Virus record (IMG/VR): IMGVR_UViG_3300027712_000177
Coordinates: 1 to 21,537 of that record
Source: a virus
Direction: 5' to 3' (one strand)
Length of the DNA: 21,537 bases
Numbering within the stretch: the first letter of the stretch is position 1; each line of letters opens with the position of its first letter. The notes below the pieces were generated by a model. That model had not been told where the DNA came from. It saw nothing but the letters and a program-made list of their open reading frames with translations, and ran no database searches. Position numbers and translations under genes: made by a program. Positions 1 through 19,092 of this stretch are shown piece after piece.

Positions 1-3000
1 AAGTATTCTTCTTTTCTTAATTGACGTAAGTCTTCTGCACCTCTTCTGAATGATTCAAAGTTTTGAGGAGAGAATGTATGGTAGTCTGTATTAAGCGATA
101 AAGTAGAAAGTTGCTTTTGCTGAGCTTCAAACTCCATAAACTGCATAAATCTATAAAAGTCTGCAATAGGAGTTTCTTCAGTTAATAAGAAATCCTGAAT
201 AGCTTTTACGTCTGTAGTTTTGCTTGTCAATAAATTTAAAGCTTGAGCAACCGTTTTCTTAACATTAATACCTTTTGTACCTACTTTAATTAATTTTGCA
301 ATATCAGGGTTTGACATCATCTCTTCTAAGATGTCTTCAGCAGGTGTACCTAAACCATATCTAACAATAGAAGATCTTTGAGACTTCTCATCTGTTGGTT
401 GATTTTTGTACTTTTGGTTAATCAACCTAGTCACAGTAGAGATTGGAGTTCCTGCAATAGCTGTATAAAGAACTACTGGAGTAATTAAGTTATTAAAATA
501 GATTCTTGCTACTTCGTCTTCTTTTTCAATATCTACGTGAGCAGAAATCATCTGACCATTAAGAAGCGAGATTAAGTTTCCATCAACATCATAAATACTA
601 GAATAATAAACTTTACCATCTATTCTATTAGAAGGAAGAATGTATAATCTATTAGCTGATTTATTTTCTAAGTTTAATTTAGCCTTTTGAACTAAAGAGT
701 GGAAAGTATTTATTTTAGCACCTACACCTAAAGACTTTTTGTAAGTGTTCAAGTTAAATACATAAAGTTGATAAATAGGACTTAATATACTAGTATAAGT
801 TGCAGTTGTGTTAGGCTCAATTGTACCAAACTCTTTTGCTAAACCTTTAATGATGTCTGATGAGTTAGGAGTAATTAAACTTTCAAAAATATCAGACTGA
901 CTTAAGCGATCTACTACATTGAATACTAAGTTGTTAGCATGAGTTTTTCTTAGTCCCTCAATATCTAATAAAATATCATTTCTTTCTTTATATAATGCCC
1001 TTAAAGCAGTTACTGCTTCTTTGATTTCTGAAAAAGAAGTAATTTCTACATTTTCTCTTACCTTATTAACAGCTGTAGTTAATTTTTCAATTGCTACTCT
1101 TGTTTTAGGATTAGATTTCTTAATAGTCTCTTCGCTAGTAAAACGTTCTTTTAATTTTTGTAAACTATTTACTGCAATTGTTTCTTCATCTACTGAAGCA
1201 CTTGTAGGAGTTCTAAATGTTTTTAACTCGTTATACAGTTCTTCAAGAACTTTATTCTTATCTGTTCCTTTTTTATCTAGTATTTTATGAAGACCTACCA
1301 TTAATTTAATTTTTAAATCAGTGGTTTTTTTAATTTCTTCAGTAGATACTTCATAAGATTTTTCTAGTTTTTTCTTTCTATCAAAAGACTGTTGAGCAGT
1401 TTGAGTAGTTAAAGGAACAGTTCCATCTTCCTTTATGTAAGGATCGTAACAGAACAATTTATCAATATCATAATCCGAACCTGATTTAACAACCATTTCA
1501 TCTGGAACCAAGATAATTTCTACACTCTCCTCAGGTAAAAACTCAACTACTGTAAAGTTCTCCATAGAGTTGTATCCTTGTCCTGGAATACGAATAGCTA
1601 CCATTGAAAGAGCTTTCTCATTTGCTTTAACAAATGCAGGATTGTTTAGAGCTTCATTTAAGACAAGTAAAGCGTCAAAAGGATTGGTAGGTTCACCATT
1701 AGCGTCTAGTTCGCCTATAGGGCTTCCTTCATACATTAAATTAAGTAGAGGATAGTATCCTTTAGAGAACGAAACAATAACTTCTGCTTTATTGATTTTT
1801 TTTCCGTCTTTAGTCAAAGAATAATATTTTAGAGTTCTTCCTGGTCTTACTATAGATACAGGGTATTGTACTCTTTGTGCACCATTTAACTTTTGACGAA
1901 TAATTTTACGCTTAGCACTAGATACGATTGCACTTTCCATTACAGTACGATCAACCATAGAATCTAGCATATACATTAAAGAACCATCAGTCTTAAGTTT
2001 GATTAAGTCTTTGGTAGCTTCAGAAGCGTTTTTCTTCTCCAGTTCTTTAAGAAGGAAGTTAACTAATTTGTCTTTATCGTTTAAGTTTTCTAAATAGTTA
2101 AGTTTGTCGTAGTCTACAATTTCTTTTACGTAAGATTTGTAAGCTTCATAAAGTTTTAATACTTCTGCATCTTCAGCATCTTTGTAAAGGAGAGATCTAA
2201 ACTGCGTACTAAACACAGATTCAAAAGATTCTTTATTTTCGATTAAAACTTGTTCTTTTAAATGTTTAATATCAATTTGTCCAATAGGAACATTAGTAGT
2301 ATCTACTTTTCCATCTTTGAACAAAGATACAGATGATACAGTTTCTGCTATTTTAGTACCTGATTCGAATACAGCATAGTCAGCAGACGATGCATGTAAC
2401 TTATGAAGAATAGCTAGTAGTTCAGGATTGTTGACAGCTTCAGAAGGTAAGATAGGTTTAACAGAGTATTTGTGGAATACTGGAACACCTTCATTATTTA
2501 CTCCTTTAGCAAAACCTGCATACTGTAACTTCTTGATAGTAAACTTGTAAAAAGCTTTTGTATTTAACTCTTTAGATAAAGTTACTTGATCATTGTCTAA
2601 GATTGCTTGATAGATTCTATTTTGTCTATCTATCTCTTGATCCATCTCAGGAGTTATTCCTGTAGATAAAGCGTAAAATCTCTTAAAAAAATCTACTGTC
2701 ATAAATGCAGCAGCATCTTGAGTTTTATGTTTATCACTTGTAGTATAAGCGTCTAAAGATTCTCCGTAAGCTTCTTTGTTTTCTAAAGCTGTTTTAGAAA
2801 TAACTGGATTATCTTTTAGAACAATATAATTAACTTTTGAAAGATCGTTTATTTGTTCGTTAATAGGAATGTTGTTTTGTTCAGCATACTTAATAAATGA
2901 ATTTCTTTGAGTAAATACTCTGTTTTGTAAGAAAGCTGTGTTTGCAGCATCTAACATAGTATAACTACCAAAGGCATTCCAAGCAGATAAACGCTTTTCA

Positions 3001-6000
3001 ATGTCTTTAGCACTTTTATAGTAGTAAGGATGTCCATAGAATAATTTATGTTGTTCTAGTCTACTTAAGAAACTAAAGAAATGGTATTTAAACAAATCAA
3101 CAGGTTCAATAGTATCTAGATTTTTAGCTTTAAAAGACCTAAGAGACACATTCATTTGTTCAGTAAAGTGTTTGTTAAAGTTTTTAGCGATTTCAATAAC
3201 AATAGGATATTTTTCTACAGCCTCTTCAAATAATTTATTTAAGATGTTTTCTCCGTTTTCATCAGTTACGTCTTTGTCTTTAAACTCATTGTAAAGTTTT
3301 GTACGTTGTTCAGAACTTAAGATGTCTTCGAAATATCCTAACTTAGGACTTCCTTTAGAATCTCTGATACTTACTTTAGGATGAATATATACTTTTTGAC
3401 CATTAGCAATTTTACCTTCAATCTCTTTAGTCATTTTAATTTCAGACATAATAGCTTTGAAGAGAAGTCTCATTTGAGGGTCAAACAAGCGAATGTTTCC
3501 TTGTCCATCTTTACTTGCTAGCTCATTCATTCCTAAGAACTTTCTTAAACCTAAGTCTAAAACAAAAGCCCTAGTAGTAGATTTACCACTTAAACGGTTA
3601 ATCTCTTCTACTCCAGATTGTAAGAAACTATTTACTTCAGCAAAATGTTTATCAATATAGTTAGTGTTGATAGTTTTTTGACCATCTTCTTCTATTTTGA
3701 TACCTTCTAAGTTTGCTAACTCTACTTGTCTGTAAGTTGCTTTTCCTCCTTGATAAGAATCAGTTATGCGATTTCCTTCTTTATCAAATAAATATTCAAG
3801 AACAAAAGAACCTATAGTGTTTGAATTATATTCAGGATCTAGTTGAGGGAATGCTTTATAAACGTCTTTTGCAGTTGGATAAGTTTCGTAGTCATTTAAA
3901 GCACTAGCTACTCTTGACATAAATGTATGTTGATTTACAGACCAAACTCTAGAGCCTTCTGCATTCATTCGCATATCATCAATGTATTCTGGATTAGACT
4001 TTACTTCTAAGTTTAAGAAATAGTTTACTGCAGAGTTTTCAGACTTAATAACCGCTTTATCTACTTTGTGAGGACTAGATAATTGGTTTAAAGGATTACC
4101 TACGGTACCATTCTCTCCTAAAGATTTTAACTTAGTTCTAATAAAATTTACGTTTCTTTCAAGAACAGACATATCTTCTAAAGGAATAGAGTCTACTGCA
4201 GCTTGAGATAAGTTAAGTCCTAGAGGTCTAAGCAAATTAATCAATTGAGCTATTCTTGCTCTCTTTTCTTCGTTAGTAGCAAGTACTACTAGTCCTACAG
4301 GTAAGGAAGGATTGTTAGTGAAGTATGCGTCTACATCTAAGTCTTGAAGTCCTGTATTAGGATTCATAACTTTATACAAACCTTGAGTCATACCAAACTC
4401 TCCATCGTATAAGTTTTTAAGACGTACTGCATCCAAAGAACTAGACTTTTGTACTTTAACGTCAGTTACATTTCCATCTTCGTCTTTGTTTATCTTGGTT
4501 GTGTAGCCTTCCATGTAAGGCATAGTAAACAAATTAAAGAACTCATTCTTAAATGAAAGAGAACTGAAACGTTCTATAGAAGTAGGAAGGTAATTTATTA
4601 AAGAATTAAACTGAGGGTATTCTTTAGATAATTCTTTTAATCTAGAATACATTTGTTCGTAGGTAGTTAAACCTGCCAAACTTCTTCTTAAGATATTCCA
4701 GTTAGTGTCAAAATCTCCCAACTGAGGAACTCCAAATAAATAGTCTACTTCAGGATTAATGTTTCCTTTAATGTGTTTAGGTAAAGTTCTAATAGCACTT
4801 ATGATAAGATTAGATGCAAGTTCTTTCTGAGAGATTTCGTTTACACTCTTATCGTAACTTCCTAACTCTGTATTAGCATCTTGTTCTTCTTCTAAGGTTT
4901 CTAACTGAATACCTCTTTTAACCTTGTCATCAAAAATTAAACTGTTTTGAATATGGAACTGAGCTACTGTATCAAAGTTGTTTAATAGCTCGTCTAGGTA
5001 GTCTAATTTAGGGCTTACAGTAGTATCGCCTGCTTCTTCTAAATCAAGGAGTTCGTTATAGGTTTGAGAAATAATATTCTTTATTCCTTTATAAACTTGA
5101 GGAATAACTTGCTTACTTACTGCTACGTTTACGAATGAACCGTTTACACTTTTAGTAATCTGGTTTGCTACGTGTGTAAATAAAGAATCAAACTGTTTTA
5201 CTATTTTATCAGATTCTACAAAACTATAAGTTTTTAGTTCTTCGTCAGATTTGACAGAAAGTTTTCTACTAAACAATTCTTTAAAACGAATATTGTCTTC
5301 AGATCTGTTATAACTAGCAATGTTTCCTTTGTATAATTGTTTAAAATAGAAGTCTACAGTTTTCTTGTTTGAGAATAAGTTAGTAATAAAGTTCCAAATC
5401 TTCTCAAAGATATTTTTGGCTTCTTTAGACTTCTTAATAGCTTCAGGAAACACTTTACCAGCACTTAAAGCAAATAGTCTAAAGTCTTCTGCCATCTTTT
5501 CCTCTAATTCAAAAGGAGTTAAGTTACCGTAGATTTTAGCAGCTTCTTTATATAGTGCTTGCTTTTGTTCTGGAGTTAAGTAAAGTTGAGTAAATTCATG
5601 CCATGCTTCGTGATAAGCGTCTGCATAATTAGCTCCATTAAATAACTGAATACCTGCCTTAGACCATACAGCATAAGCTTCAGGGTGGTTAATAGTTTGA
5701 TCAAATATAAAAGCAGTATTCTTAAATATAGGATGATTCTCTACCCATGCTTTTGCTCTTGCTTTTTGTTTAGCGTTAATTTTATTTTCTAGTAATCTTG
5801 TTCTTTCTAGCTGAGATCTGTCTACTGTTATTTCGTTGTTTAAGTCTTTAGGACTTCTACGTTTACGTACTGGTTGTTCTGTAGTTACTTCAGGAATATT
5901 TTCTGAAGGAGTTTCTTGAACAGGTACAGGAGTAGGAATATTTTCAGCTTCAGTGATAGGAGTTTCTTGACTTGGAATATTCTCAAGTACTTCAGAAACA

Positions 6001-9000
6001 GTAACTTGGCTACTAGAAGGTGCATTAATTTGAGGAGTATCAAATCCTAAAGTTCTATTACCTTCTTCTCTGAAGGTTGCTCCAAACTCTGGACTCATTA
6101 CAAAGTCTCTATAAGTTGTTGCAGGAAGTAATTCTATTTCTCCTTTAGAGTTTAGTTTTGTTGGATAGTATCTGTCGTTAGAGTTTAGTCTATCAGCTAC
6201 AATATTCTTGTAAGCATCATTGAATGCTTCCACAATAGCTTGTTCAACATTAGGAGTAATTGTAGATACAGTTTGCCATTTACCTGCTATGTTTTTCTTT
6301 TTAAATACAATTTTATCTCCTACTTTGTTTTTGTCCAAAACGTAAACAGCTTTTTCTGATTTAAAAGAAGTTAGTTGATAAGTTCTTAAGTAACTTAAAA
6401 AGTCTTCAACACTCTCAGGTAATCCGTTTGGTAAAGTTCCGTTATTAAACGCTTCTACTAATTTAAATACTAACTGACCATCTGCCTTAGGTAAGGTAAC
6501 TGCAGTTGCAGACTTAAAGAAATTGTTAGAATTTATAATGTAAGTTCTACCTGGATACAAAGTATATGTTCCTGTAGTATCTGGTGTAGGAGTGTCTACT
6601 ACTCTAAGCGAATAATTAGGTTTGTTTTTAACTGATGAAAGTTTAATAGGCACTAAATCAGTTCCTGGAATAGTTCCTGTAATGTTTGCAACAGCAACTG
6701 TTTCAGAATTTGCTTTTATTTGATCTACTAGACTTTTTAGTTGTCCTTTTAATGTAGAAACTTTAAAAGTAGAAATTAAAGGAGTTCCTACTTGACTAGG
6801 TACACCATTCTTTTCAAACAACATTACTTTACCTTCTTCGTCTGTAAGAACGCTTAGTACTCCTGTTCCTATTGCAGAAGGGTTATCTATTAAATATTGA
6901 ATGAAGGAGTTCTCGTGAAAAGGTACTCCATTTAAAGATAGAATAGATTTTAGTGTTGCTACATCTTCAGGAGTTAAAGCAGCCTTGTTTTTAAGCGTTT
7001 TAAGAGCTTCAAACTTTGCAGAGGATAAAACATATGCATAAGTATCCATAGCTCCTTGTATGCGAAGTTTTACAGCAGGAAGTTTTTCTCTTAAGTTATC
7101 AAATGCATTAACAACATTAACAGCAAAAGCAGTTCTCGCATCATCTGTTAAAGGTACATTCGAACTATCTAAAGATACTATGTTTAAAGAAAGGTCTCTA
7201 GGAGTAACAGGAACTTGTTCAATTTGACTTAATAGTTCTTGGTCTCTAATAATACCATCAGTTACTTCATCTTCAAAGGTAGATTGAGGAATTTCTTCTA
7301 TAATCTGTTCTACAGGAGGTTCTTCAATATCTTCTTTAGGAGCTTCTTCTGGTTTAAGTTTTTCGTTTAAAACTTCTGTTAACTGTCCTATTTGACTTTT
7401 AACTAAGAAAGGAAGTAAGTTAGTATTAGGAGAATCTTCATAAGTAGCAAAGAACTGTTCTATGTTTTTAGCTTGTCCAGGAAACAACTTTCGATCACCA
7501 TACATAGCAAGTAACCCACTATAAATATCTAAAGGATCTTCTTGTACTAAGACTGTTTCAAATAAAGCAATTCTGTCGTTAGCTTTATCTTGAGGTTCTT
7601 CTATTTCGTCAATTACTCTGTTTTTTGCATTTACATCTGTATACACTAATACATTAATAGGAAGCGTATTTTCAAAATCTAATCCTAAATAATCTATAAT
7701 GTCTTGTGCATCTGCAGTAGGTTCTACAAAGTCAGTACTTGCTGTAGATTTTTTAACAAGTTCTGTAGTTTGGTTATTTTTCTCTAAAGGTTTCTTTTTT
7801 TCAGAAGTTTGTTGATCATCAGTTTGAGCTTGATAGTTGATTCCTAATTCGTTTACTTCTTTGATTTTTGCTAAAGCGTCTTCTTCAGTTAAACCTTGAG
7901 TAATATTATTAAAAAAACTAAGAGCATAAGCTCTTTGGTTTTCTAACTCAGTTACTTGTTCTGGATTTTCTTCTTTTTGAGAAGCATGCTCTTCAAGCAT
8001 TCTTCCTACTATAAATCTTTGTGCATCACTTAAATGTTCATGTGCACCTTCTTCTAGTTCTCCGTTTGCAATTTCTTGTTCGGATAATTCAGAAACACCT
8101 AATTGAATATTTTGAAGATGTTTAACTTCAGGGTTATTTAAGTTTCTATTAATCTCATTTGCAATTTGATCTTCGGAGTTGTATTGTCTTGTGTTTACTT
8201 CTAACTCTGCTAAGTCTTGTAAGCGTCCAAATTTACCTTTAGGTCCAAATACAGGTGCAAACGGAATTGCAGTATGCATTTTCTCGTACTCAGCTAATGC
8301 AGGCCCTAAAGTATGGTATAAATGTAAAGCTTCTAAATTTGTAAGTTCTTCAGGATTATTTTCTAAAGTATTAAGCAAAGAATCTACTTTTGTATTAAGA
8401 GCAGTATCTACTCTTTCTTTGTATTTTAAATGCTGGTCTAAAAGAAAATCATACCTTTCATCAGATTGATCAAATTGATTCAATTCTTTTAGAGAGTAAT
8501 TTCCATTATTTAATAAGTTCCCAAGAGTTGCATCAGGTTTCTCTAATCTTTCAGCTTGTCTGTTAAATACATTACTTATAATATCTTTCTTCTCAGGCTC
8601 TGTAAGGTTGGTATATTTGTCAGCTAAGGCTTTACTTGCTTGTAATTTAGTTTGAGTCTGATCTAAAGTATTCTCATAATCCTTTAATTCATCAGGAGTT
8701 AACTTTGTAGTATCTACTTGTAATAAATCTTCTTGAAATAAAGTATCTAAAAAGAAATCTCTTTGTCGTTCTTTATCATCAAGTAGGGTAGTTAAACTTT
8801 TAATATTTTTTAATTCAGGAATAATATCAAGTCTATCGCTTAGTTGTTTAATAGCTACCTTTCTTCTAAGACCTTCTTCAGGCGTAATTTTTCCTTTATT
8901 AATTTGTTGATCCACTAGAGCAGTATAGGTAGCAGGGTTATTTGCTATATCCCATCTAGATGAATTTATTCTTTCTATTTTGTTTTGTTTTTGTGCTACT

Positions 9001-11186
9001 CCAGCTCCAGAGATAAATAAAGAAGGTATAAAACCTTCTACAGCAGTATTAAGAAAGTTTTCAGCAGTAAGTTCATTTGTTTTCTCTATATCTGCGTTTT
9101 GATTTGAAGCGTATTTATCTATAAAATAATTACCTAATAAAGAAGCTTCTTCTTCAATTGTCTCTTGTAAAGCTCCAGAAATAGTTTTTCTAATTCTCAT
9201 AGGAGCCAATAACATTGCCATCTTAAGAGGCTTAATACTATTAGCAGGAAGAAGTCCTAAAGCAAGGTCTGTTGCTCTAGTTAGTCTGCTTAAATCAGTT
9301 GGATCTATTTTACTAGAAATATTTGCAAACAGATTATCTAAAGGACCAAACTTAGTACTTCCTGAAAACAATCTAGTTTCAGGAACAATACTCTCTGTAA
9401 GACCTTCTACAATAGATCTAGACAAAGCTGTACTAAAAGCTAAACTATCGTCTTTAAAGTTCTTTCTTTCTTCTGCATACATTCTAGGAAATACAGTAGC
9501 CATAGTACCTCCCATAGTTGAAATACGGGGAGCTACACTTTCTACAAATACTTTACTTGCGGCAGCATCCATTCCACCTAATTTTGCAACGTTTGCCCAA
9601 GAAGCTCCAAATTTTCTAGCTCCCATCCCTACTCCTCTAGTAAGTAACAGAGTTGCTGCAATATCTGCTACAATAGGAGCTACTTGTTCTGTAGCACTCC
9701 AAAAATTCCAATTACCTTCTCCTGTCTTAGGATCTTTCCAACGAATATTAGTTACATAGACAGGTTGACCATTTTCGTCTAAGTCGATTTCTTTGCCTTT
9801 TAATTGTCCGTCTTTGTTTAAATCAGTTCCTTTTCTATATTGAGGAGGAGTATAATAGTCAGAGGATAGATTAAGTCCCATACTAACACTCTTGTCTAAC
9901 TTTAGGAAAGAAGAAATTCCTGAAGCAGTCTTTAACATTCCAGACCAATAACCCTCTCCCATACGAACAAAGTGTTCTCCTGAGGTTGGATTTGTACCTT
10001 CTGCTAAGTTTTTATTAGCATAAACTTCTCTTGCATTATCTCTCTTAACACTTTCAGCTGCAGCAGGATCAAACTTTTTAAGATAAGAGTAGTAGTCAGA
10101 ATAAGGTTCTATAGTTTTACTAACTTGATCTAGACTATTTGAAGTATTAGTTAATTGAATTCTTTGGGCATTTAATGCTTGTCTTTTTTCATTTGCTTCA
10201 GGAGTTTTTAAATCAGATAGTTTAGATAACTCTTCATCTAATTTAGAAGTTTCTTGATAGTTATTTTTTTGTTTATCTGCTATAGCTTCTAGTAAAGCGT
10301 TATTATATCCAGTAGTTAACTCTGCCATATAACGACTATGCTGTTTAGCTATACCAGTAAGTTCTGATATTTTTCCTACAGGTTTATTGTACTTAAGAAA
10401 TTCTAAGTCATTAGGATTATATACTTGAGATCCTGGTCTATAACTATCTAAGTCTAAAAGTCTATTTTGAAGATAGTCGTAATCCCCTCCTAAATCATTA
10501 ATTAAAGTCTGAGGAGAGTTTGTCTTTGAGTAAGCGTTCTTTTTTAAAATTTCTTGTATCTGTGCAGGTGTTTTTGTTTGAAACAAATTATCTACTTGTT
10601 CAGTAGCAAGATCTTTTTTTAATTTATTACTATAATAACTTTGAATATTTTTATACTTTTTAATTAAGTCTTCTTTTGTAGCACTATCCAAATCAACTCC
10701 ATTGTCTATATTATCTACTATCTTTTTTAGTTCGTCTAAAGCAGGTTGAGTTTTTCCCCACCCAGAATCTAATATATCTTTAGTAAGAGATGCTGTATAA
10801 TTATGTTCAGGCTTAACTGCTTTTTCAGGATTAAATTCTATTTTTTTTGCAAATACTTCTCCCATAAATTTAGCAGGAGCATTAAAAATATTATCGTCTG
10901 TAGCCAAAGGAGTATAATACCCTACTTGATACTCCGACTGTTTAGATAAACTGTCTACTTGAGACTTAGAAGCATACAAAGAAGCAATATCATTTGAAAT
11001 ATCAATTTGCTGTTGAGCTTTTTGAGCAGCCTCATTAGCTAAGGCTTTGTCATAGTCAGCCTTTTGTCTAAATTGAGTAGCATATTCAGCAGCTCTTCCC
11101 ACTGATTGGGAAGTTAAAGACTCTTTTAAGTCTGACGGACTCCAAGGTTTAAAAGGGAGTGAACTAATTAAAGGATTTTTTGGCAT
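1..11186 (-). CDS. Giant virion RNA polymerase polypeptide of a crAss-like phage, C-terminus outside window
   Basis: The frame is open for 3728 codons from an ATG at 11186 to the left edge, so the C-terminus is missing. Around residues 3238-3242 lies DYDID within GSDYDIDK, the DxDxD metal-binding motif of crAss-like virion RNA polymerases. About 39 residues earlier is RIPGQGYNSM (R3199, P3201), which resembles the RxPxLH segment preceding NADFDGD in cellular beta-prime. An HEAWH zincin motif is at 1859-1863, with candidate third-ligand glutamates at 1895, 1896 and 1900. Pro/Glu/Thr-rich linkers lie near 1280-1313 and 1726-1776. Hydrophobic stretches lie near 491-535, 655-675 and 715-730. In the family, this polymerase is packaged, ejected with the DNA and transcribes early genes. 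The length suggests that about 1750 N-terminal residues are a neighbouring cargo protein fused to a roughly 2000-residue polymerase; this is inference. The gene follows the 581-aa cargo gene after a 63-base gap. Confidence 0.9.
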   Translation of the reverse strand, partial: MPKNPLISSLPFKPWSPSDLKESLTSQSVGRAAEYATQFRQKADYDKALANEAAQKAQQQIDISNDIASLYASKSQVDSLSKQSEYQVGYYTPLATDDNIFNAPAKFMGEVFAKKIEFNPEKAVKPEHNYTASLTKDILDSGWGKTQPALDELKKIVDNIDNGVDLDSATKEDLIKKYKNIQSYYSNKLKKDLATEQVDNLFQTKTPAQIQEILKKNAYSKTNSPQTLINDLGGDYDYLQNRLLDLDSYRPGSQVYNPNDLEFLKYNKPVGKISELTGIAKQHSRYMAELTTGYNNALLEAIADKQKNNYQETSKLDEELSKLSDLKTPEANEKRQALNAQRIQLTNTSNSLDQVSKTIEPYSDYYSYLKKFDPAAAESVKRDNAREVYANKNLAEGTNPTSGEHFVRMGEGYWSGMLKTASGISSFLKLDKSVSMGLNLSSDYYTPPQYRKGTDLNKDGQLKGKEIDLDENGQPVYVTNIRWKDPKTGEGNWNFWSATEQVAPIVADIAATLLLTRGVGMGARKFGASWANVAKLGGMDAAASKVFVESVAPRISTMGGTMATVFPRMYAEERKNFKDDSLAFSTALSRSIVEGLTESIVPETRLFSGSTKFGPLDNLFANISSKIDPTDLSRLTRATDLALGLLPANSIKPLKMAMLLAPMRIRKTISGALQETIEEEASLLGNYFIDKYASNQNADIEKTNELTAENFLNTAVEGFIPSLFISGAGVAQKQNKIERINSSRWDIANNPATYTALVDQQINKGKITPEEGLRRKVAIKQLSDRLDIIPELKNIKSLTTLLDDKERQRDFFLDTLFQEDLLQVDTTKLTPDELKDYENTLDQTQTKLQASKALADKYTNLTEPEKKDIISNVFNRQAERLEKPDATLGNLLNNGNYSLKELNQFDQSDERYDFLLDQHLKYKERVDTALNTKVDSLLNTLENNPEELTNLEALHLYHTLGPALAEYEKMHTAIPFAPVFGPKGKFGRLQDLAELEVNTRQYNSEDQIANEINRNLNNPEVKHLQNIQLGVSELSEQEIANGELEEGAHEHLSDAQRFIVGRMLEEHASQKEENPEQVTELENQRAYALSFFNNITQGLTEEDALAKIKEVNELGINYQAQTDDQQTSEKKKPLEKNNQTTELVKKSTASTDFVEPTADAQDIIDYLGLDFENTLPINVLVYTDVNAKNRVIDEIEEPQDKANDRIALFETVLVQEDPLDIYSGLLAMYGDRKLFPGQAKNIEQFFATYEDSPNTNLLPFLVKSQIGQLTEVLNEKLKPEEAPKEDIEEPPVEQIIEEIPQSTFEDEVTDGIIRDQELLSQIEQVPVTPRDLSLNIVSLDSSNVPLTDDARTAFAVNVVNAFDNLREKLPAVKLRIQGAMDTYAYVLSSAKFEALKTLKNKAALTPEDVATLKSILSLNGVPFHENSFIQYLIDNPSAIGTGVLSVLTDEEGKVMLFEKNGVPSQVGTPLISTFKVSTLKGQLKSLVDQIKANSETVAVANITGTIPGTDLVPIKLSSVKNKPNYSLRVVDTPTPDTTGTYTLYPGRTYIINSNNFFKSATAVTLPKADGQLVFKLVEAFNNGTLPNGLPESVEDFLSYLRTYQLTSFKSEKAVYVLDKNKVGDKIVFKKKNIAGKWQTVSTITPNVEQAIVEAFNDAYKNIVADRLNSNDRYYPTKLNSKGEIELLPATTYRDFVMSPEFGATFREEGNRTLGFDTPQINAPSSSQVTVSEVLENIPSQETPITEAENIPTPVPVQETPSENIPEVTTEQPVRKRRSPKDLNNEITVDRSQLERTRLLENKINAKQKARAKAWVENHPIFKNTAFIFDQTINHPEAYAVWSKAGIQLFNGANYADAYHEAWHEFTQLYLTPEQKQALYKEAAKIYGNLTPFELEEKMAEDFRLFALSAGKVFPEAIKKSKEAKNIFEKIWNFITNLFSNKKTVDFYFKQLYKGNIASYNRSEDNIRFKELFSRKLSVKSDEELKTYSFVESDKIVKQFDSLFTHVANQITKSVNGSFVNVAVSKQVIPQVYKGIKNIISQTYNELLDLEEAGDTTVSPKLDYLDELLNNFDTVAQFHIQNSLIFDDKVKRGIQLETLEEEQDANTELGSYDKSVNEISQKELASNLIISAIRTLPKHIKGNINPEVDYLFGVPQLGDFDTNWNILRRSLAGLTTYEQMYSRLKELSKEYPQFNSLINYLPTSIERFSSLSFKNEFFNLFTMPYMEGYTTKINKDEDGNVTDVKVQKSSSLDAVRLKNLYDGEFGMTQGLYKVMNPNTGLQDLDVDAYFTNNPSLPVGLVVLATNEEKRARIAQLINLLRPLGLNLSQAAVDSIPLEDMSVLERNVNFIRTKLKSLGENGTVGNPLNQLSSPHKVDKAVIKSENSAVNYFLNLEVKSNPEYIDDMRMNAEGSRVWSVNQHTFMSRVASALNDYETYPTAKDVYKAFPQLDPEYNSNTIGSFVLEYLFDKEGNRITDSYQGGKATYRQVELANLEGIKIEEDGQKTINTNYIDKHFAEVNSFLQSGVEEINRLSGKSTTRAFVLDLGLRKFLGMNELASKDGQGNIRLFDPQMRLLFKAIMSEIKMTKEIEGKIANGQKVYIHPKVSIRDSKGSPKLGYFEDILSSEQRTKLYNEFKDKDVTDENGENILNKLFEEAVEKYPIVIEIAKNFNKHFTEQMNVSLRSFKAKNLDTIEPVDLFKYHFFSFLSRLEQHKLFYGHPYYYKSAKDIEKRLSAWNAFGSYTMLDAANTAFLQNRVFTQRNSFIKYAEQNNIPINEQINDLSKVNYIVLKDNPVISKTALENKEAYGESLDAYTTSDKHKTQDAAAFMTVDFFKRFYALSTGITPEMDQEIDRQNRIYQAILDNDQVTLSKELNTKAFYKFTIKKLQYAGFAKGVNNEGVPVFHKYSVKPILPSEAVNNPELLAILHKLHASSADYAVFESGTKIAETVSSVSLFKDGKVDTTNVPIGQIDIKHLKEQVLIENKESFESVFSTQFRSLLYKDAEDAEVLKLYEAYKSYVKEIVDYDKLNYLENLNDKDKLVNFLLKELEKKNASEATKDLIKLKTDGSLMYMLDSMVDRTVMESAIVSSAKRKIIRQKLNGAQRVQYPVSIVRPGRTLKYYSLTKDGKKINKAEVIVSFSKGYYPLLNLMYEGSPIGELDANGEPTNPFDALLVLNEALNNPAFVKANEKALSMVAIRIPGQGYNSMENFTVVEFLPEESVEIILVPDEMVVKSGSDYDIDKLFCYDPYIKEDGTVPLTTQTAQQSFDRKKKLEKSYEVSTEEIKKTTDLKIKLMVGLHKILDKKGTDKNKVLEELYNELKTFRTPTSASVDEETIAVNSLQKLKERFTSEETIKKSNPKTRVAIEKLTTAVNKVRENVEITSFSEIKEAVTALRALYKERNDILLDIEGLRKTHANNLVFNVVDRLSQSDIFESLITPNSSDIIKGLAKEFGTIEPNTTATYTSILSPIYQLYVFNLNTYKKSLGVGAKINTFHSLVQKAKLNLENKSANRLYILPSNRIDGKVYYSSIYDVDGNLISLLNGQMISAHVDIEKEDEVARIYFNNLITPVVLYTAIAGTPISTVTRLINQKYKNQPTDEKSQRSSIVRYGLGTPAEDILEEMMSNPDIAKLIKVGTKGINVKKTVAQALNLLTSKTTDVKAIQDFLLTEETPIADFYRFMQFMEFEAQQKQLSTLSLNTDYHTFSPQNFESFRRGAEDLRQLRKEEY

Positions 11187-11249: not shown

Positions 11250-12995
11250 TTATGGTTCTGTATCTGTGTATGAACTTGCAGGATAGTTAGGAGTTCCTTT
11301 TTGACTAAATTTAGTAGTAGTGGTAGTTCCAGCATCAAGTCCTTTGTCTTTAGTAGTAATAGAAACATCAGGAGAAGCTACTGCAAAACGACTTCCAAGT
11401 TGATCTGCATTCCTAATAAAGTCAAAATTATCAAGAGCTCCTAAAGTATAGTCAAAGCTATTATTAAAACTTATTTCTTGTCTTGAATTAAATCCTGACT
11501 TATTCTTAGTATTCCAAATATCTGTAATAGACTGTTGAGCATCTGCCAAAGCTTTTTTGTAATCTATTCCAGAACCTGTTAATCCTAAACCAAATTCTAA
11601 AGCTGCAGAAGCTTCTGGTCCAAAAGAAGTTTTTTGTATAATGTTAATTATATCATTTAGTGCCTCAAGTTGCTTTAATCCTTTTTCTTTCTTAAAAGCG
11701 TTTAAAGGCTTATCTAATCCTTTAAGAGCTTCCTGCATAGTAGGATTACTTTTATAAGAATTTTGAATTTTCATTAAAGCTTCAGACCAATTATTAGTAC
11801 GATTTAAAACGTTGCTTAACTCTGTAGTGTTTATTTCACGGTCTTTATCTGTTGCATTATACTTATCTATCTTAACTTTTTCCATACCTAACCTATGTTT
11901 GTATAGTTCTTTTTGTAGACTCATATTAGCTTCCCAAACTTTATCTTCCTTAAGTTCTCTTTTAACTTTCTGTCCAGAATATAAATTAGCCATATTGTTA
12001 ATAAGGTCATTTTGATACATAGTAGCATAGTCATTTATATCAAAACTTTCTAAAGGAGTTTCAGCTTCTGCTTTAGCATAAAGGTATTTTTGAGACTGAT
12101 TTGCTAAATTATTTTTAAGGTCTTGAATTCTTTGCTTTACAATAGGAGAAGGGACCTTTGTATAAATATCTTCAGTTTCTTTTAAAGCTTTTTTAACTTG
12201 ATTAACGTTTTGTTCAGCTAACTGCATTTGGAATGCCATCTTTTCTGTATAAGCTTGATGAGTGCCTTCTTTACCCAGAGTAATTAATCCTGCTCTTGTA
12301 TCAATCTGAAGTTGTTGTAAAGACTTAGGATTAGTAGCTAAGTAAGATCTAAACATGTCAGCTACTTTACTCTTATCAAATCCTTCAGTAGTCTTCATTT
12401 CAAAATAACCTTGAGGAGTATCTTTTCCTTTTAAAATTTCTGTTTGTTGGTCTACAGGGAGATTTTTAAAAAACTTACTCCAATCTTCTGAAATATCTGT
12501 AAACTCTATATAATCTTTTCCGTACTGTACATCTTGACCTAATTTATTATTTTTAATTTTCTCTTGAATGTCTTCCATGTAAACTAAGTCATTAGTTTTG
12601 AACTTTTTAGAAGAATCTAGTTTAGATAAATAATCTACTCGTCTTTGATATTCTTTACCACTTTTAATAGCTGTTACAATATTATTGTCTTTTTCCAAAG
12701 GTTTACCTATGTTAAGAACAGCTTGAGTATTTGCTTTAACAGAAAAATCTATTCCTGCACTACTATTAATTGCTTTTACCATTCCATCCATAGTTTGGTC
12801 AAAGTAGTCTTTTTCTGCAGAAGTTAACATATTACTTCTTAAGTCCCCATAAGCGTCTATAGTAGATTGTACTTTAGCAACTCCTTCGTCAAAAAGTTCT
12901 TGCTTCTTATAAGCTACTTTAATAAAATCATCTGCTGGTAATGGAGCAATATAATCAGGGTAAGTAAACTTGGTATGTTGAGCTGATATTGGCAT
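11250..12995 (-). CDS. Predicted crAss-like cargo (packaged virion) protein, 581 aa
   Basis: The N-terminus (PDYIAPLPADDFIKVAYKKQ, then a YFDQ..DGMV..IN.SAG segment at about 63-84) has the form I associate with a protein encoded just upstream of the virion RNA polymerase in crAss-like phages. The chain is hydrophilic, rich in Lys, Gln, Asn and Glu. It is probably largely alpha-helical with coiled-coil stretches, especially about 255-320. There is no signal peptide, membrane segment or catalytic motif. The family role, from structures of crAss-like virions, is storage inside the capsid and passage through the tail with the DNA. I infer that role here from order: 786-aa gene, this gene, polymerase. 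The ATG start at 12995 is only 3 bases after the previous stop, which implies translational coupling. The exact cargo class cannot be assigned by eye. Confidence 0.65.
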   Translation of the reverse strand: MPISAQHTKFTYPDYIAPLPADDFIKVAYKKQELFDEGVAKVQSTIDAYGDLRSNMLTSAEKDYFDQTMDGMVKAINSSAGIDFSVKANTQAVLNIGKPLEKDNNIVTAIKSGKEYQRRVDYLSKLDSSKKFKTNDLVYMEDIQEKIKNNKLGQDVQYGKDYIEFTDISEDWSKFFKNLPVDQQTEILKGKDTPQGYFEMKTTEGFDKSKVADMFRSYLATNPKSLQQLQIDTRAGLITLGKEGTHQAYTEKMAFQMQLAEQNVNQVKKALKETEDIYTKVPSPIVKQRIQDLKNNLANQSQKYLYAKAEAETPLESFDINDYATMYQNDLINNMANLYSGQKVKRELKEDKVWEANMSLQKELYKHRLGMEKVKIDKYNATDKDREINTTELSNVLNRTNNWSEALMKIQNSYKSNPTMQEALKGLDKPLNAFKKEKGLKQLEALNDIINIIQKTSFGPEASAALEFGLGLTGSGIDYKKALADAQQSITDIWNTKNKSGFNSRQEISFNNSFDYTLGALDNFDFIRNADQLGSRFAVASPDVSITTKDKGLDAGTTTTTKFSQKGTPNYPASSYTDTEP

Positions 12996-12998
12996 GGT

Positions 12999-15359
12999 TT
13001 ATTTGAATTTGGTTAATGATTTTTTACTAGTTGCTTTAGAAACTAACATTCCTTTTTTAGCTTTTTTAGTTTTCTTATCTTCAGTGTTTGCAGTAATTGC
13101 TTTATCTGCAGGTTTGTTATAATTAAACGTAGGCATTCCTTCAGGGTTTAAAGTCATTTGTAAAGTATTACCATCTGCATCATAGGAATGTACTCCATTA
13201 TCAAAGTACCACTTTTTAAGGTTTTCACTTTGGTCATGTTTAGCACTCTTCTCTACCATGTTAGCAAGGGCTGCTTGCTTCTCTGCAGATTGTGCATCTC
13301 TAGCTTGTCCAATCATTTGATTGTATACAGAGTTAAAAGCACTAGCATTGTATTGGTCTGCATTTAGTTGTCCTTGTGCATTAAACATATCTGCTTTACT
13401 TCTTCCTTCTGCATCATAGTTTTGTTTAGTTTGGAAAGACTTTTGTTTAGCGTCCATTCCAGCTAAATAAGAAGTTAATGGATCTGCTCCTGCTCTTACG
13501 GCTGCTGTACCCATATTATCTATATCTTGTAACTGAGATTGAATATTTAAAGTTTGAGGCTTTAAGTAAGGTGCATTAATTTCAGGAATAGCATAAGGAA
13601 AAATACTTTGAGACTCTGCTAATCCATAAACGTTAGGAATAGCTTGAGCTAAAGGAAAATTCATTTTATTATAGTTTCCAGGCTTAACTCCTTTTACTCC
13701 AGTAAATCCAGGAGGAATTATTTTATCTTCAACTTTAGGAGTTTTGTCTACTTTAGTTTCAGCAGTTGTAGGAGTTGTACCAGTAGTAGGAGTAGTAGCT
13801 GTAGTAGGCATTACTGTTCTAGCTCCCAATTTATTATCTATGTATGCTTTTTTCATAGATGCAAGTACTTCAGGAGTTAAGTTTTCTTTTGAAATTTTTC
13901 CTGTAGGAAACATTTTTGTTAAATCTGAAAACTCTTTACCTTTATTTGTATTACCAAATTTAGTCCACATATCTACAAGACTTTCAGGATTATTTTTTAA
14001 AGCATGATTGTAAATAGCTTCTTGAGCTTGTCCTTCCGTCATAGTCTCAATTCCTGGAATAACCTTTAGCCAAGGTTGTAAATACTCTTCAGCAGTTTTT
14101 GTTTTAGCAAAACTAGATTCTCCTGTAGGAGTAACACTTCCTTGTGGAGTATTAGCTTTTGTATAAATTTTTGCTTTAACTGTATTACCTCCTCCATCAT
14201 ATTCAGGAAGTTGGTATCCACCATACTCCATATTAGCAATGATTTGATCTTGTACTGCTTTAGGTAATGCTCTAAATCCTGGATTGTTAATTCCACCATC
14301 TCTCATTTCTCCGTTAGAGTTTCCATTCATAGACTGTTGATCATTAAATAAGTCGTCTAGCTTCTTTTGATTTCTTTTAAGCATAATAGTTGCTGTGTCT
14401 TTATCTACTTGTTTTTTAAACGGATCATCTATAGTTGTTTTGTACCCGCTAATATCATACTTTTTAGCAAGTTGTGCAAATGTTTTTTTAGAACCTTCTG
14501 GCTTTAAATGGTCTGAATAAACTCTAGTACCTTCAGGTAAATTAGTTTTGATTCCACCTCTTTCATGAGAAGGACCTTCTGCATGTTCTGTATCAAAGTT
14601 AGGAAGTTGAAGAAACTCTCCTCCTTCAATTTCTACGTTGTTTGCTCCGTACGGAGTGTTAAAACGTTTTGTAATTTGTGCTCCCATTTCTGCTTTTATT
14701 GTGGGTTGATATTCTGTTCCTCCACTAGTTGTTCTACCATACATATAGTTATAGTCGTAGAGAGGCTTAGATTGTCTATTTTGAATGCTTTCGTTAAGTA
14801 TGCGTTGATTCTTGAGGTCTTCGTTATAACCTAGTCCCATATCTATTGCTCCTAGTCCTAAAGAGAACATAGAGTTATAATCTAGATTAGCTTTTTTTGC
14901 TGCTCCTTCTATTTTTTGAGTAGCTGTTTGTGGACCATATCCAGGAGCAAAAGAACTTTGATTACCATTTAAATCTTTTCCTGTAGTTGTTCCCAAAGGA
15001 GCACCTGTAATAATATTATTACCTTGTCCAAATGTATTTAAAAAATCTAGAGTTTGTACTCCAAAATTAGGAGAAGCAATAGATTGTACAAATGGCGATC
15101 CATTTCCTTTAGGCTCTCCTGTAATCCTAGTCTCTCCTGCAGTGTTAATATCTGCAGATAGTCCTTGATTAGTATTGGAAGAATTAAATAGAGAAGGAAC
15201 TTTAAATGTAAAATTAAAGTTATCCGCAGATCCCCAATAGTTCATTTTAGGATTTTCATTGATATTCAATGAGTTACCATTACTAGGTTGATCTACTCCA
15301 TCAACTGCTTTAGGTAGATTAGACTTTGAGAATTTTTTATAAAGATTAGCTCTTAACAT
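12999..15359 (-). CDS. Predicted crAss-like virion/cargo protein with GPSHERGGI domain, 786 aa
   Basis: This is the first gene of the second transcription unit, with an ATG at 15359. Residues 1-200 are Asn/Ser/Gly-rich and look disordered. Residues about 242-300 hold a compact domain with EIEGGEFLQLP followed by GPSHERGGI (262-270) and LPEGTRVYSDHLK. This type recurs in large virion proteins of Bacteroidota phages and its function is not known to me. A helical segment follows (about 300-345). A Thr/Pro-rich linker (about 517-545) separates it from a Gln/Ala-rich helical C-terminal half. The last 25 residues are Lys-rich and end SLTKFK. There is no signal peptide. Its position directly before the cargo gene and the RNA polymerase suggests a muzzle-associated or packaged cargo protein. 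The role is inferred from context and resemblance. Confidence 0.6.
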   Translation of the reverse strand: MLRANLYKKFSKSNLPKAVDGVDQPSNGNSLNINENPKMNYWGSADNFNFTFKVPSLFNSSNTNQGLSADINTAGETRITGEPKGNGSPFVQSIASPNFGVQTLDFLNTFGQGNNIITGAPLGTTTGKDLNGNQSSFAPGYGPQTATQKIEGAAKKANLDYNSMFSLGLGAIDMGLGYNEDLKNQRILNESIQNRQSKPLYDYNYMYGRTTSGGTEYQPTIKAEMGAQITKRFNTPYGANNVEIEGGEFLQLPNFDTEHAEGPSHERGGIKTNLPEGTRVYSDHLKPEGSKKTFAQLAKKYDISGYKTTIDDPFKKQVDKDTATIMLKRNQKKLDDLFNDQQSMNGNSNGEMRDGGINNPGFRALPKAVQDQIIANMEYGGYQLPEYDGGGNTVKAKIYTKANTPQGSVTPTGESSFAKTKTAEEYLQPWLKVIPGIETMTEGQAQEAIYNHALKNNPESLVDMWTKFGNTNKGKEFSDLTKMFPTGKISKENLTPEVLASMKKAYIDNKLGARTVMPTTATTPTTGTTPTTAETKVDKTPKVEDKIIPPGFTGVKGVKPGNYNKMNFPLAQAIPNVYGLAESQSIFPYAIPEINAPYLKPQTLNIQSQLQDIDNMGTAAVRAGADPLTSYLAGMDAKQKSFQTKQNYDAEGRSKADMFNAQGQLNADQYNASAFNSVYNQMIGQARDAQSAEKQAALANMVEKSAKHDQSENLKKWYFDNGVHSYDADGNTLQMTLNPEGMPTFNYNKPADKAITANTEDKKTKKAKKGMLVSKATSKKSLTKFK
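13765..13809 (-). repeat. Thr/Pro codon repeat encoding a linker
   Basis: An imperfect run of ACT/ACA and CCT codons encodes the TTPTTGTTPTT stretch of the 786-aa protein. It probably forms a flexible linker between its two halves. Its complement gives the Val-rich plus-strand open frame here, which is an artefact. Confidence 0.7.
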
Positions 15360-15626: not shown

Positions 15627-16085
15627 TTAACATTTCCAACGTCTTCTTGCTTGACGTATTCTTGAATTAGGATCATTCCTAGTTTCTGCAGAAGAGTTTT
15701 TAAGTTGTCCTAGTGATCTAGCACAATAAGACTTTCTTCTCATAGCTGATTTACTTCCTGGTTTAACTGTACCTGTTACAGCAGTTTTTAATTTAGATCC
15801 TGGATTAGCTCTTCTATATGCTTCTACTCCTTTTCTAGTCATACCTGCTCCTGATTTAGTTGGGCGATAATTTGCACTAGGTCCTTTAGTAGTATGCGAG
15901 ATAGTTCCTCCTGCCTTCATGTAAGCAGCTTTTAATCTGCCACCTAGTTCCATTTTAGATTCAGACTTAATCTTTCTCTCTTGTTTAAGCATTTCAGGTG
16001 TAGGTTTTTTACCACTACCTTTATTTGCTCTTATGTTATTCCATAAAGAATTCTTTACTCCTAATTTATTTAATTTCTGTTTCAT
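15627..16085 (-). CDS. Small basic protein with C-terminal SYCARS-type domain, 152 aa
   Basis: I choose the ATG at 16085, which overlaps the preceding endonuclease stop as ATGA, over a TTG at 16103 that would add six residues. Residues 14-42 (LWNNIRANKGSGKKP then EMLKQERKIKSE) and the C-terminal 116-152 (RRKSYCARS, DPNSRIRQ, ARRRWKC) are modules I recognise from small proteins of many tailed phages; their function is unknown. The ends carry two cysteines, C121 and C152. In the middle (49-57) is GRLKAAYMK, like the N-termini of two neighbouring proteins. The protein is highly basic with no membrane segment. A virion or DNA-associated role is plausible, not shown. Confidence 0.75.
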   Translation of the reverse strand: MKQKLNKLGVKNSLWNNIRANKGSGKKPTPEMLKQERKIKSESKMELGGRLKAAYMKAGGTISHTTKGPSANYRPTKSGAGMTRKGVEAYRRANPGSKLKTAVTGTVKPGSKSAMRRKSYCARSLGQLKNSSAETRNDPNSRIRQARRRWKC

Positions 16086-16702
16086 ATTGTAATATTTTTC
16101 CAAGTTCTACCTCTATGTATATCTTTAATTGCATGATAACTTAAATTTAAAAAATCAGCCACTTGTTTAGGCTTTAAACCTAAAGCTAATTGTTTTTTAA
16201 TACTTACTACTTCTACTTCAGTTAGCTTTGCCATTTTATGATTTACCCCTGATTTCCAGTTCTTTGAAAGCTTTTCTAAATGTTTTTTTCTATATTCAGA
16301 ATCTTTCCAATTATTCTGTTGAATTATTGATTTTTGTAATTTAACTTCTTTAGTTCTTTTTATCCCTAAGTTACTCCCTGCAACTTTTGCTACATTATAT
16401 TCAGGCAATAGGGTATCTAAATAATATTGTTCTCTTGTAAGTAAGTCTTGATTTCCACATTCTTCTATAATTTCTAATTTAAAATTATCCTCTCCATACT
16501 TAGTGACTGCACGAATTAAAACAGTGCAAGAACTTTTACCTGTCCTTATATGGTTAATATGTGTATAATACCTTTTAATAAAATTCTGACTACTTCCTAT
16601 GTAAAAATGCCCATTAACTAGATTAGTAATCTTGTAAATAACTCCACTACGACTTTTTTTAGTCATATACTTAGTTACTTGATCCTCTGTTAAAGCTAAC
16701 AT
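16082..16702 (-). CDS. GIY-YIG homing endonuclease with C-terminal HTH, 206 aa
   Basis: The catalytic GIY-YIG domain occupies about 18-106: GVIY at 20-23, YIG at 34-36, R44, E91 in the REQYY segment, and N103 in YNVA. These match the conserved residues of the family. Residues about 160-204 form a helix-turn-helix-like DNA-binding module (LTEVEVVSIKKQLALG, then KQVADFLNLS and IKDIHRGRTW). Enzymes of this type nick or cut DNA to spread their own gene. It is free-standing: it sits between the 358-aa gene, whose stop is one base before its ATG, and the 152-aa gene, which its TGA overlaps in ATGA. It uses TGA, whereas every other stop seen is TAA, which fits later arrival. Neighbouring frames are intact. 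Confidence 0.93.
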   Translation of the reverse strand: MLALTEDQVTKYMTKKSRSGVIYKITNLVNGHFYIGSSQNFIKRYYTHINHIRTGKSSCTVLIRAVTKYGEDNFKLEIIEECGNQDLLTREQYYLDTLLPEYNVAKVAGSNLGIKRTKEVKLQKSIIQQNNWKDSEYRKKHLEKLSKNWKSGVNHKMAKLTEVEVVSIKKQLALGLKPKQVADFLNLSYHAIKDIHRGRTWKNITI

Positions 16703-16703
16703 A

Positions 16704-17780
16704 TTATTTCTTTACCTTTGATTTGTTTAAGAAGTCATTTAGACTATACTTTACTTTTTCTCTGTTGAATTGATTAGAGAGTTGATTAGCTAATTGTAGT
16801 CTATTCTTTTTATCTTTTACTCTACGTAAGATACTTGCTACTCCATTAACCATATCGTCATCGTTACTATGGTCAACTTTACCCCCTTTTTTAAATCCTG
16901 GAGCTAATGCATCAGGAGTATTTAGACTTTCAGGAGCTTTACCTGTTTTTAAATAGCCTTGATAGTCTTGTAAAAACTGTGGATTTAAGAATTGCATTTC
17001 TTGTTTGTAGGGAGCATACTCTGCATCATTAGATACCATACCCCTTACATAAGCGTCTGCTCCTCCATTATTTTCTACCATACCTTTTCCATATCTACTA
17101 TTAAGTCTATTCTCTAATCTTTGATTTAAAGTTTGGTATGTAGGATCTCCATGTAATGCATGACTCATAAAGTCATTGGTTGCTATGTTTTTAACTTGTT
17201 GACGATTCAATCCTTTCTTATTAATAAGCGTAGTGTACTCTCCTGGATTAGGATTTCTAATTACTCCGTTGTCTAAAGTAATATCTCCTTTGTAAGGGTA
17301 TCCTGAATCTGTGTCATTTTGGTTATCAGGAACACCATTACGATTGTTGTCTTTATCAAAGTATTCAGGATTATGTTTAGCGGCTTCTAAGAGTCTACGT
17401 TGACTTCCTTTTGCATAATAGATGTTTGTATTGTCTGAGTTTAGAACGTTCTTTAAAACAGGGTTTTCATTTAAAATTTCCTGCTTCATTAATTGTCTAT
17501 CTCTGAAAGTTCTATTAAACCAGTTATTCTTAATATCTCCTCCTCCAGGCATTTTCTGAAGTCCTCCCATTTGCATTTTAGCTACACCACCACATTTGTG
17601 ACAGCTTAAAGGATTAAGTCCTCCTTCTGATGCTTTCCAAGACCATCCACATTTAGAACATGTAATAGTTTTATCTGCCATTCCTCCTTTTTTCATACCT
17701 ACTATATGACCTTCCATTGTTCTAGGGTCGTATAGTTCTGCTCCGTGTTTAGCTTTTTTATATGCGTTCTTTAGTCTCAT
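16704..17780 (-). CDS. Zinc-ribbon virion-type protein, 358 aa
   Basis: Residues 1-7 are MRLKNAY, shared with the 123-aa protein. A zinc ribbon follows, CSKCGWSW at 41-48 and CHKCGG at 60-65, giving four cysteines in two CxxC pairs. This GWSWK..GG..CHKCG form is familiar to me from crAss-like phage proteins. Residues 142-160 (DKDNNRNGVPD, then NQNDTDSG) look like a calcium-binding loop of the thrombospondin type 3 kind. The remainder is hydrophilic, and the C-terminus is Lys-rich (KSKVKK). No enzyme motif is evident. The ATG at 17780 lies inside the 71-aa gene (23-base overlap), so translation is probably coupled. Likely a minor structural or packaged protein; the function is unknown to me. 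Confidence 0.7.
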   Translation of the reverse strand: MRLKNAYKKAKHGAELYDPRTMEGHIVGMKKGGMADKTITCSKCGWSWKASEGGLNPLSCHKCGGVAKMQMGGLQKMPGGGDIKNNWFNRTFRDRQLMKQEILNENPVLKNVLNSDNTNIYYAKGSQRRLLEAAKHNPEYFDKDNNRNGVPDNQNDTDSGYPYKGDITLDNGVIRNPNPGEYTTLINKKGLNRQQVKNIATNDFMSHALHGDPTYQTLNQRLENRLNSRYGKGMVENNGGADAYVRGMVSNDAEYAPYKQEMQFLNPQFLQDYQGYLKTGKAPESLNTPDALAPGFKKGGKVDHSNDDDMVNGVASILRRVKDKKNRLQLANQLSNQFNREKVKYSLNDFLNKSKVKK

Positions 17781-18360: not shown

Positions 18361-19092
18361 TTAGTTTTCTTTATATTTCCAATAATGGTTGTAACGTACT
18401 TTGTTGTATTTTATTCCAGACCAAATATTGCCTACACTTTTAGATAAGGCAATAGCTGCGGATTGTAAACTATCCCACTCTTTAACTAAATTCATTTCTA
18501 AGTCAAATTGTAAAATAGGTTTTTTATGGGCTTCTGCATTTTTTCTAGCAGCAGTAATTAAATTAGCAAGTTCTTCCTTTGGTCTTTTTAAATTCCTTTT
18601 TTTAGAAGACTCACTCATCTTCTTTAAAGACTCTTCTGAGTAAACTCCTACTTTTCCTTTATTCCAAACAGGCTTTAAGTTCCTAGCATCTTTAAGGATA
18701 TTAATCAGTTCAGGATTTTTAACAAACTTTTCAGCACTTTTAATACCTATTTTTTTCTTAGTCTCCTCTGATAAAGTCTTTTTACCTAAATAATCCAAAC
18801 TAGCCAAGTTGTAGTCAGCATTTAAACTTGTAATAAAGTATCCTTCTCTTTGTAGCAGTTGAGTTAAATCTAAAACCTCTTCTAAAACTTCAAAGTTAAA
18901 ACTACATTCTCCATACTTACAAAAAGAATTTTGAAGATAACTATTAGAGTGTGTCTTACTTAAAAGTTTTAAAATGTGTTCTCGACAGCGTTTGCGAATA
19001 TTTACACTGCTCCCTATATAACATTTGTTATTTATAGTATTTGTAATTTTATAAATACCAGCTGTTTTAGGGAGATGTGCAAATTTATTCAT
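18361..19092 (-). CDS. GIY-YIG homing endonuclease with NUMOD modules, 243 aa
   Basis: The catalytic domain occupies about 10-96: GIY at 12-14, YIG at 25-27, R33 or R35, E83 in LLQREGYFI, and N95 in DYNLA. All the usual catalytic positions are filled, so it is probably active. Two NUMOD3-like DNA-binding repeats follow (LSEETKKKIG at 107-116 and YSEESLKKMS at 151-160). A C-terminal NUMOD1-like module (about 192-243, starting PILQFDLEMN) ends NHYWKYKEN. This is the layout of free-standing phage homing endonucleases related to I-TevI and Seg proteins. It lies 2 bases after the 131-aa gene's stop and 15 bases before the 123-aa gene. Both neighbours are intact, so it is an intergenic insertion, not an intron. 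Confidence 0.93.
   Translation of the reverse strand: MNKFAHLPKTAGIYKITNTINNKCYIGSSVNIRKRCREHILKLLSKTHSNSYLQNSFCKYGECSFNFEVLEEVLDLTQLLQREGYFITSLNADYNLASLDYLGKKTLSEETKKKIGIKSAEKFVKNPELINILKDARNLKPVWNKGKVGVYSEESLKKMSESSKKRNLKRPKEELANLITAARKNAEAHKKPILQFDLEMNLVKEWDSLQSAAIALSKSVGNIWSGIKYNKVRYNHYWKYKEN

Follow-up and report, generated by a model that had tools for sequence, protein, structure and literature searches.

Does the giant reading frame at the end of this viral contig encode a virion RNA polymerase, and if so, to what is the polymerase fused? The stretch of DNA analyzed here (hereafter the window) is an entire IMG/VR record of 21,537 bases, with nearly all of its content on the minus strand. 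We consider, with a probability of about 0.92, that the giant protein combines two parts: a gp47-type cargo module, which has a zincin-like segment at its end, and behind it the catalytic subunit, a single chain, of the RNA polymerase carried in crassvirus virions. Judging from studied phages, the protein would be packed into the virion, ejected, and active in transcription.

Extent of the giant gene and its neighbors

The sequence-only reading described one frame of at least 3728 codons in which RIPGQG precedes DYDID by about 39 residues. Both statements hold, since the frame is continuous and still open where the contig ends, and the two motifs lie exactly 39 residues apart (Table 1). The nearest relative, L004, extends 365 residues past the window end, which puts the giant gene at ~4093 codons, and untruncated homologs have 4007‒4798 residues. 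Recoding of the frame was also considered and rejected; the frame is open under translation table 11, and table 15 gains nothing.

Table 1 Features of the window. Residue numbers refer to the giant protein.
Feature	Positions	Strand	Evidence or remark
Giant fused gene	3..11186	-	~4093 codons, 3728 of them in the window; truncated at contig end
N-terminal module, residues 1-1149	7740..11186	-	Exchanged between phages; putative virion cargo/ejection part
Acidic/proline-rich linker near residue 1295	7257..7355	-	Inserts of 127-235 aa in relatives
Proline-rich linker near residue 1761	5832..5984	-	Inserts of 98-163 aa in relatives
Zincin-like metalloprotease segment, residues 1809-1960	5307..5762	-	crAss001 gp47 C-terminus (96.7%, E 4e-10); Suoliviridae giants
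HEAWH, zinc-ligand-like motif, residues 1859-1863	5598..5612	-	HE[AS]WH in 14/14 aligned relatives
RNA polymerase catalytic core, residues 2777-3671	174..2858	-	Lineage-free profile, AlphaFold2 model, Foldseek match to 6vr4
Lys2906	2469..2471	-	99% of 85 polymerases; candidate catalytic Lys, first barrel
Lys2945	2352..2354	-	98% of 85 polymerases; second candidate Lys, first barrel
RIPGQG, residues 3199-3204	1575..1592	-	R and P invariant in 85 polymerases
DYDID, metal-binding catalytic triad, residues 3238-3242	1461..1475	-	Invariant Asp; phi14:2 has DFDID at 1361
Hypervariable segment behind catalytic motif, residues 3274-3410	957..1367	-	34-41% identity to L004 amid >90%
581-aa gene, second cargo protein place (C2-like by position)	11250..12995	-	Position as in crAss001, Suoliviridae, and Fpv3
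786-aa gene, first cargo protein place (C1-like by position)	12999..15359	-	Position
GIY-YIG homing-endonuclease gene	16082..16702	-	PHROG/Pfam
358-aa protein, CSKCGW...CHKCGG zinc-ribbon-like stretch	16704..17780	-	Without PHROG or Pfam match
GIY-YIG homing-endonuclease gene	18361..19092	-	PHROG/Pfam
DUF5856/phrog_858 gene	19095..19490	-	Annotated starvation-inducible transcriptional regulator
Muzzle protein, C-terminal 680 aa	19493..21535	-	Pfam crAss_MUZ 1.8e-21; PHROG virion structural 1.9e-69; 5' end cut by contig

The layout of a muzzle gene, two mid-size genes, the giant, and a second large gene is shared with the Suoliviridae and phage Fpv3. No relatives of the 581-aa gene turned up in the viral contigs searched. 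Between the muzzle gene and the 786- and 581-aa genes lie several small genes, among them the DUF5856 gene directly after the muzzle gene and the two homing-endonuclease genes. In relatives of the window, the gene after the giant is gp49-like (hhalign, 90.8%; L004 11548-20427, L016 15688-23577, L018 6712-14994, and L024 15371-23653). This gene carries HEFGH or HEFSH and occurs in a form of 1926‒2312 aa and in a form of >2600 aa with an extra HEPVH or HEVAH.

The C-terminal part is a polymerase catalytic subunit

The giant is too divergent for single-sequence or library searches: phmmer with the whole protein against PDB returned chance NusG matches only, and the Pfam and PHROGs searches gave no match. 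Full-length HMMER models of 4‒5 sequences had no matches either; very long models are probably too weak after entropy weighting. In their place, we used hhalign and a deep profile of the core only, disregarding as artefacts the first hhalign matches of one or two columns on single long sequences. Polymerases were collected from viral contigs of the window lineage, Suoliviridae, Steigviridae, and many other lineages, and 85 of them were aligned.

A profile from which the whole window lineage had been removed matches residues 2777‒3671 of the giant with E = 8.4e-81; the same protein, shuffled or reversed, gave no match. With the window lineage included, the full profile finds the phi14:2 polymerase (PDB 6vr4, E = 1.2e-187). 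The last 1199 residues match crassvirus polymerases by tblastn, including the catalytic subunit of phi14:2, g066, and a search for relatives of the giant in bacterial and archaeal genomes found none.

The AlphaFold2 model of residues 2763‒3622, built from the 85-sequence alignment, has a pLDDT of 89.9 and a pTM of 0.89. In a Foldseek search of PDB, this model matches 6vr4 with E = 1.3e-21, a probability of 1.00, and a TM score of 0.60 over 930 columns. No other PDB entry falls below E = 0.001, and the weaker matches are the RNA polymerases of phages AR9, PhiKZ, and P32. The confident model thus matches the phi14:2 structure around residues 3190‒3250, where a double-psi barrel had been expected, and it predicts two such barrels in one chain with the 6vr4 fold, a correspondence that holds for the model as a whole rather than strand by strand. 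An earlier model from 16 sequences (pLDDT 52), whose Foldseek matches were meaningless, is superseded by the present one. The C-terminal part of the giant is a Crassvirales virion RNA polymerase, namely its catalytic subunit. At a sequence identity of near 20% to the polymerases of other lineages, it may differ from them in details of promoter choice and of partners.

Fusion to a probable cargo module

Upstream of the polymerase, residues 1847‒1917 match the C-terminus of crAss001 gp47 in a profile comparison (96.7%, E 4e-10). The histidine motif of this segment reads HEAFH in gp47 and HEAFH, HEAYH, or HEAWH in the Suoliviridae. From the zincin-like segment into the polymerase (residues 1809‒3246), the window lineage and the Suoliviridae giants are collinear over 1301 columns (hhalign, 100% probability, E 3e-48), with a spacing from zincin to DxDxD of 1379 residues in the window versus about 1475‒1530 in the Suoliviridae. 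The gp47, gp49, and gp50 proteins were all detected in crAss001 virions by mass spectrometry (PMC10172136). Together, the gp47 match, the presence of gp47 in virions, and the collinear order support a fusion in which a gp47-type cargo module, ending in the zincin-like segment, is probably joined to the polymerase. The fusion with an upstream cargo protein proposed in the sequence-only reading thus gains a virion protein as its likely source at the zincin, but most of residues 1‒1800 remains unmatched: hhalign detected no separate protein for it outside the lineage, the body of gp47 and phi14:2 g067 included, and the gp47 match is confined to residues 1847‒1917.

The N-terminal part also behaves differently from the rest within the lineage. 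The window and L004 share about 92‒94% identity over most of residues 1150‒3728 but only 41% over residues 557‒1149, the overlap available, where L004 is no closer to the window than the rest of the lineage is. A second drop lies behind the catalytic motif. Such sharp drops between otherwise nearly identical genes indicate that the N-terminal module, like the post-motif segment, has been exchanged by recombination. The resulting mosaic marks natural module borders (1149 and 3274‒3410), which are of use for cutting expression constructs. The two linkers vary by insertion (Table 1); one insert of L004 has a 56% identical relative in L032 and L033 at a different position, and none of the linker inserts has a significant Pfam domain. 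In the L019 giant, a 134-aa insert after window residue 1295 looks like a GNAT acetyltransferase by eye (RNKGYG), with no significant Pfam match.

These observations leave some room for a different origin, in which the N-terminal part has no homology to gp47 and an unrelated cargo protein joined the polymerase independently in this lineage, gaining the zincin. The lack of any separate protein matching residues 1‒1800 would fit such a history, as would the free exchange of the N-terminal module. We nevertheless regard it as rather unlikely, since the gp47 zincin match and the collinear match to the Suoliviridae are more simply explained by one fused ancestor or gene pair, and the gene order is identical to that of relatives.

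The position of the zincin-like segment at the junction of the two modules, with variable proline-rich linkers on either side, raises the question of a polyprotein. In that case, the zincin within the chain might cut near residues 1760‒1960 and release separate gp47-like and polymerase proteins in the virion, corresponding to the separate genes of crAss001, where the two halves are encoded on opposite strands. The conservation in the lineage of HE[AS]WH and of a downstream EEKLAEDF, which resembles an acidic ligand, is compatible with a working protease. However, the phi14:2 polymerase and the gp47 half function elsewhere as uncut genes, no cleavage site was seen, and the Fpv3 giant gives no match to the zincin segment. 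Moreover, the second His is replaced in the giants of L026 and L027 (HEAFE instead of HEXXH, residues about 2300‒2520), in which the zincin segment and the fusion are present. The zinc site has probably been lost in these two, and the fused form cannot depend on proteolysis in general. We therefore regard as improbable a polyprotein with self-processing or docking, in which the junction zincin would stand between a conserved polymerase and an N-terminal ejection module open to exchange. With such a protein, lineages could swap the entry module and keep the transcription engine.

Catalytic residues of the polymerase

Turning to the polymerase itself, the sequence-only reading likened the arrangement of RIPGQG and DYDID to that of RxP and DFDGD in cellular enzymes and noted an Ile in place of Gly. 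The arrangement is indeed present. Across the 85 diverse crassvirus polymerases, Arg3199, Pro3201, Gly3236, Asp3238, Asp3240, Asp3242, and Lys3243 are invariant, and Lys2886, Lys2906, Lys2945, Gln2995, and Gly3102 are kept in at least 95%. The Ile is no departure, since GSD[FY]D[IV]DK is the motif in nearly all polymerases collected, DYDIDK at 3238 in the window and the DFDID of phi14:2 included; crassvirus polymerases normally carry Ile where DFDGD has Gly. In L016, L030, L032, L033, and L035, GGDFDID replaces GSDYDID as the catalytic motif. Seven residues without variation in the alignment, and several lysines that hardly vary, are thus directly testable in phi14:2 gp66.

The missing Gly of DFDGD, and the distance of the sequence from every tested enzyme, could suggest a barrel protein that is catalytically dead or otherwise used (e.g., RNA-templated). 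This is very improbable, because the three Asp residues, RxP, and the lysines are all retained, and the phi14:2 polymerase, which carries the same DFDID, is reported to be active in vitro and in vivo (PMC10136315).

Distribution of giant polymerases and placement of the lineage

Polymerase genes of up to ~6000 aa have been described in crAss-like phages, and giant polymerases have been called a hallmark of the group (PMC10136315). A survey of 50 virus records with the polymerase profile placed the polymerase in frames of 3900 codons or more in 23, of 3400‒3800 codons in 10, and of about 2200‒3200 codons in 13; the frame is interrupted by stops, mostly TAG, in the remaining 4. The giant fusion is thus not peculiar to this phage, since it is also seen in the Suoliviridae, in Fpv3, and in roughly half of the records surveyed. 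Although the window is one metagenomic record with both ends cut, an assembly artefact joining two genes can be dismissed, since a single frame of >4000 codons is found in all 17 close relatives whose gene escapes truncation by a contig end, and fused giants also occur in the Suoliviridae and in the cultured phage Fpv3.

In the polymerase tree (FastTree), giants are found to either side of the midpoint. The window lineage groups as a clade with full support, which sits on a long branch away from the Suoliviridae and Steigviridae; beyond the clade itself, the placement is soft. Its polymerase branch lies outside the Suoliviridae clade, and its capsid protein is nearest to those of the Leptolyngbya phage Lbo-JY46, the epsilon phage csAssE-Sib, and FpV4-like phages (27% identity to epsilon/Lbo-JY46 relatives); the lineage is thus no member of the Suoliviridae. 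The muzzle protein is nearest to those of the same phages and phi4:1 (31‒36% to epsilon/Lbo-JY46 relatives). The host of Lbo-JY46, as deposited, is the cyanobacterial Leptolyngbya.

In agreement with a report that epsilon-group phages lack the transcription block (PMC7886860), the polymerase profile had no match anywhere in the genomes of Lbo-JY46, csAssE-Sib, and phi4:1. The window lineage resembles the epsilon/Lbo-JY46 group in muzzle and capsid but has the polymerase, and we therefore do not file it there; it combines an epsilon-like body plan with a retained polymerase. This combination bears on the loss or exchange of the transcription block. What is new here is a distinct uncultured lineage (about 20 records found), deeply separated among crassvirus virion polymerases, with a capsid and muzzle nearest to those of polymerase-less phages and with an exchangeable N-terminal module (residues 1‒1149).

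Proposed mechanism

By analogy with phi14:2 and crAss001, the chain of ~4093 residues would be packed in the capsid as cargo near the portal. As proposed for the crAss001 cargo, it may leave through the muzzle before the DNA in a partly unfolded state (PMC10172136). After refolding in the host, it would transcribe early phage genes independently of the host enzyme, in the manner reported for phi14:2 (PMC10136315), with the lysines and the DxDxD metal site provided by the two predicted barrels of the one chain.

Comparison with known systems

The closest structural counterpart, phi14:2 gp66 (6vr4), shares with the window giant the fold of the catalytic core, RxP, GSDxDIDK, and the conserved lysines. 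In phi14:2, however, the polymerase (2180 aa) follows a separate gene of 1797 aa, g067, in which a zincin was sought and not found, whereas the window has one fused gene, and sequence identity between the two is low. In crAss001, gp47 (2341 aa), gp49, and gp50 (2412 aa) are three separate genes, with gp47 on the strand opposite to gp49 and gp50; the C-terminus of gp47 holds the zincin, and gp50 holds DFDVD.

The Suoliviridae giants (cr118_1 gp14, 4946 aa; cr10_1 gp32, 4460 aa; cr53_1 gp57, 4645 aa) show the same fusion as the window, with the zincin followed by DFDID ~1500 residues on, and the same gene order. They differ in their N-terminal 1800 residues, which have no detectable similarity to those of the window, and the window capsid and muzzle have their nearest relatives elsewhere. 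The cultured Flavobacterium phage Fpv3 encodes a giant, gp32 (4287 aa), of the same layout, with a polymerase core matching at E 3e-116, but the zincin segment was not found in the corresponding place.

The virion RNA polymerases of N4-like phages are T7-like single-subunit enzymes of a different fold, without double-psi barrels. They resemble the window giant in being giant single chains in a podovirus virion (Schitoviridae, e.g., DEV, 3398 aa; PMC10925440). Fused giants are thus an already known kind of protein, and the window adds an uncultured branch to the crassvirus giants.
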